Positions 55,673-61,357 of a stretch of DNA of 64,000 bases are shown here, piece after piece. Source of the DNA: a bacterium OL-1 (GTDB lineage: Bacteria; Actinomycetota; Coriobacteriia; Coriobacteriales; Atopobiaceae); contig LM994625.1 of assembly GCA_000752675.2 (NCBI GenBank), positions 489,940 through 553,939 on the forward strand, written 5' to 3'. The position numbers and the translations under genes were made by a program. How positions within the stretch are numbered: position 1 is the first letter of the stretch; each line of letters begins with the position of its first letter. The notes under the pieces are model-generated. The model saw only the letters and a program-made list of their open reading frames with translations. It made no database searches and had not been told where the DNA came from.

Positions 55673-56410
55673 ATGGACACGCTTGGTTACCTCGACACCT
55701 TGGATGCGGAGGTTCGCGACAGGCTCACCCCTTGGGCTGGTCGAATTCCCGCTGCCCTTCTCAGCAGATGCGCGCTCGTAAAACTGGACAAGGGCGACGA
55801 GCTCGTGCACGAGTTCGACCGCTTTGGTTCTGTCTACGTCCTCACGCGCGGTGTCATCGCCTCTACCAGCCCGCTGCTTGACGGCGGCACGTACGTGATA
55901 GACGAGTTCCATGCGCCGGCGGCCTTTGGTGAGATGGAGGCCATTGGCGCTAGCCCCTTCTACCACAGCTCGCTCATGGCTGCCACAGATGCCGAGCTTA
56001 TCCGCGCCTCCGGTAGGGACTACCTTGCGTGGCTCTCCGGAGACGCCGACGCCCTGCTTGCGCGCTCGCGCTGGGTTGTCCAGCGCCTTGCAAGCCAATC
56101 GAGCCACGAGCGCTCCCTGCTTGCATGGACTGGCGAGAAGCGCGTTGCCTACGCACTCTGCCAGCTCTATGGAGAGGCCGGAGGGGAACGCCTGGTAGTG
56201 CCGCTAACGCGCGCGCAGCTGGCGGAACGCGTGGGCGTAAGCACCAAGACAGTGAGCCGTTCCATAGCTTCGCTTGGAGATGCCGGGATGGCGCGCCTTG
56301 AGGGCAGAAGAATCGTGATTGACCGAGAGGCATTTGAGCTTCTCGAAGACATGCTCCGCGACGAGCTTGGTCAAAGCGCGTGCGGAAGAGAAGGGAGTGC
56401 ACGTTCATGA
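55673..56410 (+). CDS. Crp/Fnr-family transcriptional regulator
   Basis: The 245-residue protein has a cNMP-binding beta roll (residues about 30-120, VYVLTRGVIASTSPLL) and a C-terminal winged helix with LAERVGVSTKTVSRSIASL. There is no N-terminal Fe-S cysteine cluster, so it is not a classical Fnr. The small-molecule ligand is unknown. GAGGAGGGG precedes the ATG. It overlaps the yjjI start by 4 nt (ATGA), so it is likely to control the glycyl radical enzyme. Confidence 0.87.
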   Translation: MDTLGYLDTLDAEVRDRLTPWAGRIPAALLSRCALVKLDKGDELVHEFDRFGSVYVLTRGVIASTSPLLDGGTYVIDEFHAPAAFGEMEAIGASPFYHSSLMAATDAELIRASGRDYLAWLSGDADALLARSRWVVQRLASQSSHERSLLAWTGEKRVAYALCQLYGEAGGERLVVPLTRAQLAERVGVSTKTVSRSIASLGDAGMARLEGRRIVIDREAFELLEDMLRDELGQSACGREGSARS

Positions 56411-57921
56411 AGACCATCGACAACACCCAGGAGTTCTACGACATCTGCACGGCGAGTAACCTCACGTACAAGCAGAAGCTGCTGCACCTGGCGCAGGCAG
56501 CCGAGAACAGCATCGACCCCATCGAGCGCCCCAAGGAAGCGGACTACTTCTTCGAGCACGGCGGCATTGACTACATGTGTGAGGGCAACGCGCCCTACCG
56601 CCCGCGCTACATCTGCCCGGACTACGGCAAGTTCCTCGCCCAGGGGAGCGAGTTCTTGCGCCTTAAGCCAGCGGAGACTCTGGACGATGCGCTTTGGAAC
56701 CTTGCGATGGTCTACGACAACGTGCCCTCGGTCACCAGCCGCCCCGTCTATGTGGGCCAGCTTGACCGCATGCTCGATCCCTTCCTCGACGGCTATAGCG
56801 ACGAGGAGGTAAAGGCGCGTCTGCGTCGCTTCCTCAACTACATTGACCGCACCGTTGCCAGCGGTTACTGCCATGCAAACATTGGCCCCGAGGAGACGCG
56901 TGCCGGCCGGCTGCTCATGGAGGTTGAGCAGGAGCTTGCCAACGCGGTACCCAACTTCACGCTGAAGTACGATCCGGCAATAACACCCGATGACTTTGCC
57001 CGTCTCGCCGTGAAGACCACGCTCACCTGCGCCAACCCCGCCTTTGCAAACGACCGCATCCACCGCGAGACCTATCCTGGCGACTACACAGTGGTGAGCT
57101 GCTACAACGTGCTGCCCATGGGCGGCGGCGCCTACTGCCTTGATCGCCTGCTGTTCCCGCGCCTTGCGGACATGGCGTCAAGCGTAGACGACTTCATGGA
57201 CAACATCCTCCCGTCTGCCACGGGCGCGCTTCTCGAGTACATGAACTCCCGCATTAAGTTCCTTGTCGAGAAGTCGAACTTCTTCGAGACCTCGTTCCTC
57301 GCCAAGGAGGGCCTCATCAGCCGCGACCGCTTCTGCGCGATGTTTGGCGTAGCCGGCATGAGCGAGTGCGTGGCCAAGCTGCTTGGCCTTCACGACGGCC
57401 GCGCCTACGGAACAGATGACGAGGCCAACGACCTTGCCGATCGCATCATGTGCCAGGTCTACAAGCAGGTTCTGGAGTTCCCGGCAGTGTACTCGGAGGT
57501 CTCTGGCAACCGCTTCACGCTGCATGCGCAGGCCGGCTTCTCCGACATGCCGGGCGTGACGCCGGGCGTGCGCATCAAGGTTGGCGACGAGCCCGAGGTC
57601 TTCTACGACCACATTCGTCACAGCGCTCGCATGCACCGCTTCTTCAACGCCGGTGTCTCTGACATCTTCCCCGTTGAGCCCACGGCCAAGTCCAACCCCG
57701 ACGCCGTCCTCGACGTTGTAAAGGGCGCCTTTGCCATCGATGACAAGTACCTCTCGTTCTACTCGTCCAATGGGGACCTGGTTCGCATTACGGGCTTCCT
57801 GGTGAAGCGTTCTGAGATGGAGAAGTTCGCCCGTGGCGAAGCAGTGCTCGCCGATACCTCGCATGACGGCGAGGGCAACTGGCGGGCAAACGACCTTGCA
57901 GACCGCAAGGTCCGCCTGTAG
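56407..57921 (+). CDS. yjjI: YjjI-family glycyl radical enzyme
   Basis: The 504-residue protein resembles E. coli YjjI, a glycyl radical enzyme of unknown function. The C-terminal radical loop reads LVRITGFLVKRSEM, with Gly463 as the radical site. A second likely active-site Cys is Cys232 in VVSCYNVLPMGGG. The protein is shorter than pyruvate formate-lyase and lacks its N-terminal part. The start was placed at MKTIDNTQE, overlapping the Crp gene. Its activase YjjW follows. In E. coli yjjI-yjjW also lie next to deoCABD, as here next to deoC and nucleoside genes. No substrate is proposed from sequence. Confidence 0.85.
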   Translation: MKTIDNTQEFYDICTASNLTYKQKLLHLAQAAENSIDPIERPKEADYFFEHGGIDYMCEGNAPYRPRYICPDYGKFLAQGSEFLRLKPAETLDDALWNLAMVYDNVPSVTSRPVYVGQLDRMLDPFLDGYSDEEVKARLRRFLNYIDRTVASGYCHANIGPEETRAGRLLMEVEQELANAVPNFTLKYDPAITPDDFARLAVKTTLTCANPAFANDRIHRETYPGDYTVVSCYNVLPMGGGAYCLDRLLFPRLADMASSVDDFMDNILPSATGALLEYMNSRIKFLVEKSNFFETSFLAKEGLISRDRFCAMFGVAGMSECVAKLLGLHDGRAYGTDDEANDLADRIMCQVYKQVLEFPAVYSEVSGNRFTLHAQAGFSDMPGVTPGVRIKVGDEPEVFYDHIRHSARMHRFFNAGVSDIFPVEPTAKSNPDAVLDVVKGAFAIDDKYLSFYSSNGDLVRITGFLVKRSEMEKFARGEAVLADTSHDGEGNWRANDLADRKVRL

Positions 57922-57932
57922 GGAGCGCTACG

Positions 57933-58772
57933 GTGTCCGTTCACATACCCATTAACAACATCATCCCGTTTTCACTGGTGGACGGGCCTGGCTCGCGATG
58001 CTCAATCTTTGTCCAGGGTTGCAATATCCACTGCGCGTACTGCCACAACCCGGAGACGCAGCGGCTCTGCGTTGGCTGCGGGGCCTGTGTGCGGGCGTGC
58101 CCGGCGGGGGCCCTCAAGATGGTGTGCGGCGCCGTCGAGTGGGACCAAGGCGCATGCGTGAAGTGCGATACGTGCATCCACGTGTGCCCCAACCACTCGT
58201 CGCCCCGCATCCTCTACCTCGACGCAGAGCAGGTCTTTGAGCGCGTGAAGTCGTACATGCCCTTCATTAGGGGAGTCACCTGCTCGGGTGGCGAGTGCAT
58301 GCTCTACCCCGAGTTTCTCTCCGAGCTCTTTGGGCTGTGCCGGGGCGTTGGGCTTGGTTGTCTCATCGACTCCAACGGCACGGTAGACTTTGCCGAGCAT
58401 CAGGACCTCCTTGCGCTGTCCGATGGCGTGATGCTCGACCTCAAGTGCTGGGATGATTCGTGGTTTGTCTCGCTCACGGGAACCGACGGAAAGACCGTCC
58501 GCAAGAACCTCGCGTTTCTTGCGGAGCAGGATAAGCTGGCTGAGCTTCGCGTCATTGTGACCGTGGACCGCAACGACCCCGAAGCTGCAGTACGCGGAGC
58601 AGCTGGTGTGCTTGGGGAGAGAGTGGCCTCCACGCGTCTGAGGCTCATGCGCTTTCGCCACTTTGGTGTCCGCGGGGAAATGGAGGGAGCGCCCTCCCCT
58701 ACTGACGAGCGCATGGACGCCATGGAGGAGCTTGCGAGGTCGTTGGGATTTGGCACCGTTGTGGTGAGCTAG
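57933..58772 (+). CDS. yjjW: YjjW-family glycyl radical enzyme activase
   Basis: A 279-residue radical SAM enzyme that would place the radical on YjjI. The catalytic CxxxCxxC is Cys30, Cys34 and Cys37 in FVQGCNIHCAYCHNP. A ferredoxin-like insert with two four-cysteine clusters follows at Cys46-56 and Cys75-85. GVTCSGGECM completes the SAM-binding region. The start is a GTG with AGGGAG upstream, 11 nt past the yjjI stop. Confidence 0.88.
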   Translation: MSVHIPINNIIPFSLVDGPGSRCSIFVQGCNIHCAYCHNPETQRLCVGCGACVRACPAGALKMVCGAVEWDQGACVKCDTCIHVCPNHSSPRILYLDAEQVFERVKSYMPFIRGVTCSGGECMLYPEFLSELFGLCRGVGLGCLIDSNGTVDFAEHQDLLALSDGVMLDLKCWDDSWFVSLTGTDGKTVRKNLAFLAEQDKLAELRVIVTVDRNDPEAAVRGAAGVLGERVASTRLRLMRFRHFGVRGEMEGAPSPTDERMDAMEELARSLGFGTVVVS

Positions 58773-58864: not shown

Positions 58865-59506
58865 TTAGCCCTCGACAATCTTGATGCCTGCACTGCAGCC
58901 AAGGCGGTCGGCTCCCGCCTCCACCATGGCAAGCGCTTCCTCCTTGGTGTGGATGCCACCCGCTGCCTTGACCTTGCAGCGATCGCCGACGGTCTTGCGC
59001 ATGAGCGCCACGTCGTGCACCGTGGCGCCTCCCGTCGAGAAGCCGGTGCTGGTCTTCACGAACGAGGCTCCTGCGGCAACCGCGTCCTCGCAGGCGCGGA
59101 CGATCTGCTCGTCATCGAGGAGGCAGCACTCCAGAATGACCTTCACGGGGTGGCCCTGGGCAGCCCTGACGACGGCTGCTATGTCATCGATGACGTACTG
59201 GTCGTCGCCAGCGACGAGGTGACCGCCATTGACCACCATGTCGATCTCTGTGGTCCCGTCCGCCACGGCCTGGGCGGCCTCGGCGGCCTTCGCCTGCGTG
59301 GAGCAGGCACCCAGAGGGAAGCCGATGCAGGTGGTCACGCCCACGCCGGTGCCCGCAAGGCGCTTGGCAGCCATCGCCGTCCAGCACGAGTTGATTGCAA
59401 CCGTCGCGAAGTGGTACTTGGCCGCCTCGTCGCACAGGCGCTCGATGTCTGCCTGCGTCGCGTTCTGCTTGAGATTGGTGTGATCGATGTAGCCATTGAG
59501 TTCCAT
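58865..59506 (-). CDS. deoC: Deoxyribose-phosphate aldolase
   Basis: DeoC splits deoxyribose-5-phosphate to acetaldehyde and glyceraldehyde-3-phosphate. The 213-residue product has the Schiff-base Lys151 (SFVKTSTGFSTGG), the conserved Lys180 (VKAAGGIH) and Asp89 (EIDMVVNGG). The start was placed at MELNGYIDH with GGGAGTATG upstream, discarding 121 in-frame codons that run into the intergenic repeat. It is the last step of the nucleoside pathway served by the pdp-deoB genes. Confidence 0.95.
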   Translation of the reverse strand: MELNGYIDHTNLKQNATQADIERLCDEAAKYHFATVAINSCWTAMAAKRLAGTGVGVTTCIGFPLGACSTQAKAAEAAQAVADGTTEIDMVVNGGHLVAGDDQYVIDDIAAVVRAAQGHPVKVILECCLLDDEQIVRACEDAVAAGASFVKTSTGFSTGGATVHDVALMRKTVGDRCKVKAAGGIHTKEEALAMVEAGADRLGCSAGIKIVEG

Positions 59507-59669
59507 AACATACTCCCGTCTTACGAAGACCCTCCCATAGCTTCCAGCCCACACCTTGGCACAAACAAGATGCTGACGCAATGAGCGCCTCGGCAGCCGT
59601 ATGGCATCCCACTCATCACTGACGGCTACACACAGACCCAGGTGAGGCCTAGTTCGCCCAATACTGATT

Positions 59670-60020
59670 CCTGGCATCAATTGACGGTTGGGATACGGTT
59701 TATCGGGCACCCACTGAGTACAAACTGGTTCGAGATTTGTTAAACACCTGGTAGACGAATTGCCATCATGACGATTACATATCATTATTGAAACCAAAAC
59801 TGCTGCCAACCGGAAGTCGCCTTTTGCATCAGTACAAGCGCTCGGATTCCAAGGGGCGCCGAGGGTCATCGCACTTCCGGTTGGCAGCAGTTATTGTTCA
59901 AGTCTTTATATATCATTATGCATATCGCAATTCTTTGACCTGCGCTTTAACAAACTTCGAACCATTTGATGCTTGGGGGTACCCTCAAAAACCGCATCCC
60001 AACCAGAAATTCTTGCCAGG
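59670..60020. repeat. Large imperfect inverted repeat (arms 148 nt) upstream of deoC
   Basis: The left arm (59670-59817) and right arm (59873-60020) are inverted copies that align without gaps over 148 nt, with 103 identities by my hand count. The innermost 20 bp are perfect (AACTGCTGCCAACCGGAAGT and its complement), enclosing a 55-nt loop. Conserved blocks include GGTTGGGAT, TGGTTCGA, TTTGTTAAA and GAATTGC. No gene was recognised. It lies between the deoC start and the alcohol dehydrogenase stop. Confidence 0.85.
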
Positions 60021-60071
60021 CAGGGGCGAGGAACCAGCCCACAGCTCTGCGGTTAGCCAAAGGAAAAGAGA

Positions 60072-60093
60072 GACGGAGCCAAAAGGCTCCGTC
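60072..60093 (-). terminator. Alcohol dehydrogenase terminator
   Basis: GACGGAGCC and GGCTCCGTC enclose TTTT on the minus strand and are followed by TCTCTTTTCC. It lies 38 nt past the dehydrogenase stop. Confidence 0.85.
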
Positions 60094-60130
60094 CCTCGGG
60101 TGGTAACGCCAATGCTACTTGGGGCAAGAA

Positions 60131-61357
60131 CTAGAAGTTCACCGGCTCGTCGTAGTAGCAGCACTTGAGAATCTTCTCGAAGTCCTCTGCCTTGGTTTCG
60201 CGCGGGTTCTCGGGCGTGCAGGCATCCTGGACTGCGTTGGCAGCAATGGTGGGCAGCTTCTCGAGGAACTCCTTCTCGGAGACCATAACGGGCTCGCCGG
60301 TCTCGTCTGCCTTAACGCCACCGTTGGCGTAGTTGTTGATGCTCTGCGGGATGTGCAGCTCGTCGTTCATGCTGCGAATCTTCTCCACCAGAGAGTCGAT
60401 GAGCTGGTCGTCGGTGGTGCCAGGAAGGTGCAGGATCTCCTTGGCAACATAGGCATAGCGCTCGTGAGCGCGCGGGTCCTTGGAGTTCCACTGGATGGCC
60501 TTGCCCAGATACATGGCATTGGCGGCACCGTGAATGATGTGGCCGTTCTCAAACGCAGCGCCAGTCTTGTGGGCCATGGAGTGCACGATGCCAAGCAGAC
60601 CCGAGGAGAAGGCCAAGCCGGCCAGGCACTGGGCCTCGTGCATGTGCTTGCGGCCCTCATGATCGCCGGTGTAGGAGACGGGCAGCCACTGCGTAATCTC
60701 ACGGATGCCGTGCAGCGCGTCGGCGTCGGTGAACATGGAGGCTGCTGTCGAGACGTACGCCTCGAGACAGTGCGTAAGGGCATCCATACCGGTGTGTGCG
60801 CAGAGCTTCTGAGGCATGGAGTAGGTGAGCTCGGGGTCGACGATGGCAACGTCAGGCGTGATGTTGAAGTCTGCCAGCGGGTACTTAATGCCATGCTCGT
60901 AGTCGGTAATGACCGAGAAGGCCGTTACCTCGGTAGCGGTGCCGGAAGTGGAGCTAATAGCGCAGAAGTGAGCCTTGTGGCGCAGCTCGGGGAACGAGAA
61001 CGGCTGAATGATGTTATCGAACTTCTCGTCGGGATACTCGTAGAAGACCCACATGGCCTTCGCGGCGTCGATAGGCGAGCCTCCGCCGATGGCAACAATC
61101 CAGTCCGGGCCAAAGTCCTGCATGAACTTGGCGCCCTTCTGCACCGTCTCGATGGACGGGTCGGACTCGACGCCCTCGAACAGCTTGACCTCAAAGCCAG
61201 CATCCTCCAGGTCCTTCTGAACGTCCTGCAGGAAGCCGCCGCGACGCATGCTGTGGCCACCGGAGACGATGACGGCCTTCTTGCCCTTGAGGTTCTTCAC
61301 CTCGTGGCGAGCGCCCTCACCAAAGTACAGGTCACGCGGGTTGGTAAAACGTCCCAT
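60131..61357 (-). CDS. Iron-containing alcohol dehydrogenase
   Basis: A 408-residue group III alcohol dehydrogenase. It has the NAD(P)-binding GGGSPIDAAKA and metal-binding regions around HTGMDALTHCLEAYVST and GIVHSMAHKTGAAFENGHI. These enzymes reduce aldehydes such as acetaldehyde or butyraldehyde. The gene follows deoC on the same strand across the repeat and could reduce acetaldehyde made by DeoC, but the substrate is not shown. GGAGGATG precedes the ATG. Confidence 0.87.
   Translation of the reverse strand: MGRFTNPRDLYFGEGARHEVKNLKGKKAVIVSGGHSMRRGGFLQDVQKDLEDAGFEVKLFEGVESDPSIETVQKGAKFMQDFGPDWIVAIGGGSPIDAAKAMWVFYEYPDEKFDNIIQPFSFPELRHKAHFCAISSTSGTATEVTAFSVITDYEHGIKYPLADFNITPDVAIVDPELTYSMPQKLCAHTGMDALTHCLEAYVSTAASMFTDADALHGIREITQWLPVSYTGDHEGRKHMHEAQCLAGLAFSSGLLGIVHSMAHKTGAAFENGHIIHGAANAMYLGKAIQWNSKDPRAHERYAYVAKEILHLPGTTDDQLIDSLVEKIRSMNDELHIPQSINNYANGGVKADETGEPVMVSEKEFLEKLPTIAANAVQDACTPENPRETKAEDFEKILKCCYYDEPVNF

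Follow-up and report, generated by a model that had tools for sequence, protein, structure and literature searches.

The inverted repeat upstream of deoC consists of two complete copies of a 143/144-nt palindromic element that is non-coding, intergenic and dispersed, and the two copies face each other head-to-head between a terminator-like hairpin of an alcohol dehydrogenase gene and deoC. Here, the window is the whole 64,000-nt stretch analyzed, positions 489,940 to 553,939 of contig LM994625.1 of the Atopobiaceae bacterium OL-1. In our best reading, which is drawn from sequence comparison, the copies belong to a new family of intergenic palindromes resembling ERIC and CIR, now predicted to act as a double-stranded protein-binding site, and the element looks like working candidate protein-binding DNA, not junk or structured RNA.

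The two arms (59668-59817 and 60022-59873) align ungapped over 150 nt with 104 identities around a 55-nt loop (59818-59872), and the inner 20 bp of both arms are perfect (AACTGCTGCCAACCGGAAGT at 59798-59817 and ACTTCCGGTTGGCAGCAGTT at 59873-59892). This agrees closely with the initial annotation, where 148 nt and 103 identities had been counted. The repeat is real, as its gapped local score was 75 and the maximum in 300 shuffles was 23, and the DNA fold of 59668-60022 gave -81.6 kcal/mol versus -41.3 ± 3.9 in shuffles (z = -10.3). The left copy (59672-59817, minus strand) has its outer end, TGGCA, at 59672 and its inner end, GGAAGT, at 59817; it is of the 144-type and measures 146 nt when two extra inner bases are counted. 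The right copy (59873-60018, plus strand) begins with the inner end ACTTCCGG at 59873 and terminates with the outer end TTGCCA at 60018. The inner terminal arms, at 59798-59817 (minus) and 59873-59892 (plus), match each other perfectly and are the conserved family end. The outer terminal arm of the left copy is located at 59672-59695 (minus, reading TGGCATCAATTGACGGTTGGGATA on the plus strand) and that of the right copy at 59999-60018 (plus), the latter switching by subfamily jointly with the inner arm.

Both neighboring genes, named as in the initial annotation, are on the minus strand. The start codon of deoC (deoxyribose-phosphate aldolase, 58865-59506) at 59506 is 165 bp from the left copy, and the 3′ end of the alcohol dehydrogenase gene (60131-61357) is 112 bp from the right copy. 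An intrinsic-terminator-like hairpin of the dehydrogenase gene (60068-60097, minus strand) lies between this gene and the pair, with 0.8 such sites expected from shuffles. The pair occupies much of the space between the two genes. A promoter scan gave two weak sigma-70-like matches within the left copy, where 0.8 were expected. The region adjoining deoC (56380-58772) carries a large enzyme gene and then a gene with a cysteine-rich, radical-SAM-like start, and we take this gene order, by eye, to resemble yjjI-yjjW-deoC of E. coli.

When a sequence-only profile built from eight copies (R1) was used for the search, about 11 near-full copies plus fragments were found in the own genome, and 9-39 matches per genome in all 8 genomes of the genus Tractidigestivibacter/Olsenella. 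Each arm matched several other places singly in the own genome; the initial annotation had proposed to look for single copies there and in relatives. The exact 19-mer CTTCCGGTTGGCAGCAGTT occurred in genome contigs mainly of Tractidigestivibacter montrealensis, T. scatoligenes, Olsenella sp. kh2p3 and two metagenome assemblies. It was also found singly in five unrelated bacteria (L032, L037, L045, L033 and L050), and the first three, all Pasteurellaceae, perhaps represent one conserved gene. A distant-mode search of a plasmid collection with the region gave no match.

In the genus as a whole (eight genomes), 113 copies could be extracted in full, of which 63 measure 143 nt, 41 measure 144 nt and the remainder are within 3 nt of these lengths. 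The mean identity of copies within a genome was 68%, with diverged intervals, yet hardly any indels were present. The 143-type subfamily has the matching ends TGACGGTTGGTGGCAGTTT and AAACTGCCACCAACCGTCA, the 144-type has TTCCGGTTGGCAGCAGTTTT and AAAACCGTAGCCCAACCG, and the two ends of an element tend to switch subfamily jointly. The conserved ends are TGGCA and TGCCA or TGACGG, and the inner conserved blocks lie around TTATRTGA, GCAAWTCNCTGACCTGCGGTTYATCAAA, TCGAACC and TACTYGGGG; the four or five conserved blocks remarked on previously in the window are those of the dispersed family. None of the 113 copies overlapped a gene predicted by a home-made gene finder. According to the extracted sequence stretches, from which neighboring pairs were read as well, 60 copies were between tandem, 33 between divergent and 16 between convergent genes, and 4 were at contig ends.

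Relatives have not conserved the window pair at deoC, and the content of this site differs among species, with flanks too diverged for a clean empty site. Only the outer ends are kept upstream of deoC in G003, now as a palindrome with arms of about 30 bp, which looks like a former head-to-head pair. Four other genomes (G002, G004, G005 and G007) have a 94-nt element of a separate family there, and G006 has neither the 143/144-nt pair nor the 94-nt element. Conservation of the palindrome in close relatives, on which the initial annotation had made its idea of a selected structure depend, is therefore restricted to the collapsed remnant in G003 and is otherwise absent at this site. The separate palindromic family, likewise dispersed in the genus, is exactly 94 nt long in 19 of the 21 copies, with ends AACCTCACACGTGTTATTTC and centre CAACTGGG; its locations include L273, L274, L275 and L276, upstream of deoC, and C2:25934, C2:187403, C2:495417, C2:612459 and C9:205383 in the own genome.

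For the analysis of constraint, block columns were defined on the paralogs of G006 and then scored on orthologous copies in other species. Divergence was 0.089 at block columns, 0.241 at interval (variable) columns and 0.168 in alignable flanks, with evolution at orthologous sites about 2.7-fold slower in block than in interval columns. Gap bases numbered 2.4/kb in elements versus 326/kb in flanks, the flank value being inflated by poor alignability. With one pair per locus, the expected direction was observed in 12 of 15 loci (sign test, p = 0.035; Wilcoxon, interior columns, p = 0.006), several of which have few differences and two of which include a copy from G006, so that their independence of the column definition is incomplete. 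These results indicate that selection acts on the element copies where they sit, and such slow block evolution with almost no indels in resident copies is not expected of idle mobile-element copies.

Neighboring copies less than 2.5 kb apart were inverted in 28 of 28 pairs and direct in none, which amounts to about 20 loci once orthologs are grouped. Spacers shorter than 200 nt were found in 22 pairs, 10 tail-to-tail and 12 head-to-head. Using one spacer per locus (16 loci, with one tail-to-tail value estimated from profile coordinates), the best period in the range of 5-20 was 10.3-10.4 bp (R = 0.80), and 0 of 20,000 jitter trials were as good, in a test devised after the pattern had been seen in the same data. 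The tail-to-tail pairs alone gave R = 0.96, with 6 of 8 loci at 67-68 nt, and carry most of the phasing signal. Constraint on blocks, length and spacing is found for the element family, whereas head-to-head phasing alone was not significant and is only suggestive (p = 0.07); the spacer of the window pair, 59 nt by family boundaries, deviates from the preferred phase by about 0.2 turn. The 66-68-nt tail-to-tail spacer sequences were mostly no more alike than shuffles, with the possible exception of the loci G006 203 and 598 (reverse spacer identity 0.66 versus 0.54 in shuffles), which may share descent.

Two further arrangements of inverted copies were observed. In three species (L092:1919-3449, L093:1683-3237 and L094:1945-3473), two copies separated by about 1.25 kb enclose a gene of about 337 aa whose codon usage is atypical, and identity of the two copies is 100% in G003, 99% in G004 and only 83% in G001, which suggests conversion between them. 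Related tail-to-tail pairs at L230 and L231 (G006) and L166 (G001) have the elements in swapped order with the orientation of the spacer kept, as if the spacer had been inverted via recombination between the copies.

We give about an even chance to the explanation that the family is a double-stranded DNA binding platform for a putative protein, with copies paired in inverted orientation. The putative protein or proteins would bind at both terminal arms and at the inner conserved blocks, with two adjacent inverted copies brought together in one complex. Such a complex would account for the strictly inverted arrangement of neighbors and for the tendency of short spacers to differ in length by whole turns of the helix. 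We favor double-stranded binding on two grounds: a constant length, constant distances between blocks, inverted pairing and helical spacing are features of DNA complexes, and no internal RNA helix is supported. The elements are intergenic and most lie upstream of one or more genes, so their likely effect is on transcription or on the local architecture of the DNA. The family probably began as an ERIC/CIR-like (MITE-like) repeat and may have been mobile at first.

A MITE family proper, that is, non-autonomous selfish copies moved in trans by a transposase recognizing the terminal inverted repeats, with a facing pair due to chance insertions or to one insertion beside another, is a rather unlikely explanation, although several properties fit it. 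The elements are shorter than 200 nt, non-coding and bounded by terminal inverted repeats, they are dispersed in unrelated intergenic places in both orientations, they are AT-rich compared with the flanks (GC 0.48 versus 0.64), several element families coexist, and the deoC site holds different elements or none, depending on the species. On the other hand, no flank k-mer match in 113 copies was clearly above permuted pairs, so there is no signal of the target duplications by which the initial annotation would have recognized a plain MITE, and the TA dinucleotide was not found at the element termini. A terminal-repeat pattern scan of G001, G003, G006 and G010, and of G000, G002 and G005 for one arm type, found no autonomous element with the same ends; in the former four genomes the terminal repeats occurred almost only as ends of short units and never around a long element. 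In addition, neighboring copies are inverted only, and resident copies are constrained and almost indel-free, as idle MITE copies would not be expected to be. Of the foldback mobile-element relic suggested at first, the terminal inverted repeats and the dispersal therefore stand, while an autonomous partner and target duplication are missing and the copies appear to be selected in place.

Mobilization of the REP/RAYT type was considered and rejected, since the RAYT-like gene of the own genome is flanked by different hairpins and no homolog was found in G006, the element-richest genome of the genus. This gene (252 aa, L136:1371-2296, own genome C10 about 281.2-282.2 kb) scored 73.8 bits with REP_Tyr_transpos, for which the NCBIfam cut-off is 80, and its homologs are widespread in the family Atopobiaceae. 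Its own hairpins, CGGGATT..CTCCCCGGCAATGG, lie on either side, and gene and hairpins form a REP/RAYT pair unrelated to the 143/144-nt element.

That the copies are operators of the regulon of a single transcription factor is improbable. Most copies are upstream of at least one gene (33 divergent and 60 tandem, with 16 convergent), and some sites recur across the genus, such as the glnA-like/amino-acid-transporter-like and phosphoketolase-like/LacI-like intergenic gaps (names by eye). Nevertheless, an operator of 143 nt would be very long, the distance to the start codon varies widely among copies, the neighboring genes are without obvious common function, and 16 of the 113 copies are between convergent genes. 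The initial annotation had also considered two facing copies of a regulatory region; each arm is indeed a full repeat found singly elsewhere, whereas no association with one gene type was evident among the neighbors of the copies.

Palindromic elements of related form were found outside this family. Genome G010 of a second genus contains about 17 elements, mostly of 124-127 nt, bounded by CGGTTGTCAGYGGTTTTT and centred on the related CATTTYTCTACCTGCGG, and the profile made from them (R2) matched in 43 of 129 genomes of the Atopobiaceae overall, namely in many genomes of the second genus and, as a second class of elements, within the genus of the window. In the 126-nt class, a suspected short ORF on the reverse strand was judged by eye not to be conserved and was discarded. 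In this wider superfamily, the terminal arms vary among loci and species yet remain complementary, which could also reflect a nucleic-acid fold.

This complementarity, together with the excess of A-C over G-T arm mismatches (39 versus 17, counts that are not phylogenetically independent) expected if the reverse strand were RNA, speaks for a multicopy small RNA or structured RNA family with the arms as terminal stem, but the large structured RNA proposed in the initial annotation has little probability, given that in 7 of 8 folds a single unit was no more stable than its shuffles, that no internal helix covaries among 86 non-redundant copies (the covariation present tracks subfamilies), that an Rfam search of the region gave only a chance-level miRNA match far below the cut-off, that the 113 copies have no orientation preference relative to genes, and that RNA does not predict the helical phasing of pairs.

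Among published elements, ERIC, CIR and Correia come closest: they resemble the present family in size, palindromic form and intergenic location, while the TA ends, target duplications and autonomous partner of a MITE were not found for it in the copies and genomes scanned. ERIC (IRU, RU-1) of enterobacteria, a short, palindromic, dispersed, non-coding intergenic element of 127 bp, has TA at its termini, a terminal repeat of 7 bp and target duplications, and occurs inside genes as well (PMC2229807). The present family is likewise short, palindromic, intergenic, dispersed and non-coding; compared with ERIC as described, it has arms of 20-30 bp and inverted-only pairing, and has no TA ends, duplications or copies in genes. 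The Caulobacter methyltransferase-associated intergenic repeats (CIR, about 110 bp) are strictly intergenic, palindromic and conserved between species, and their mobility is unproven (PMC2229807). All four properties hold for the present element, but CIR is made up of two distinct stem-loops and carries a GANTC methylation motif, whereas the present element is one overall palindrome. Correia/NEMIS of Neisseria (107 and 155 bp, with 24-bp terminal inverted repeats and a protein-binding site in the long form; PMC2229807) is similar in having size classes and terminal inverted repeats, and differs in its TA termini and target duplications, neither of which was seen here. As in REP/BIME, the units are intergenic, neighbors are inverted and a nucleoprotein role is possible, but REPs are far shorter. 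No earlier description of the 143/144-nt family was found in the literature searched, the coverage of which is incomplete.

Intergenic repeats in bacteria are mostly known as mobile sequences whose use is unclear. The apparent selection on resident copies, the near-invariant length and the inverted pairing rule make the usefulness of such repeats to the host testable in culturable gut and rumen bacteria. A broader and doubtful proposal is that Atopobiaceae have several families of fixed-length palindromic DNA platforms spread across the chromosome, bound as helically phased inverted pairs by a putative DNA-bridging protein whose specificity changed between lineages, and that these are a new kind of chromosome-organizing or regulatory site. 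Should such a bridging protein exist, it would represent a new chromosome-organizing or regulatory factor.
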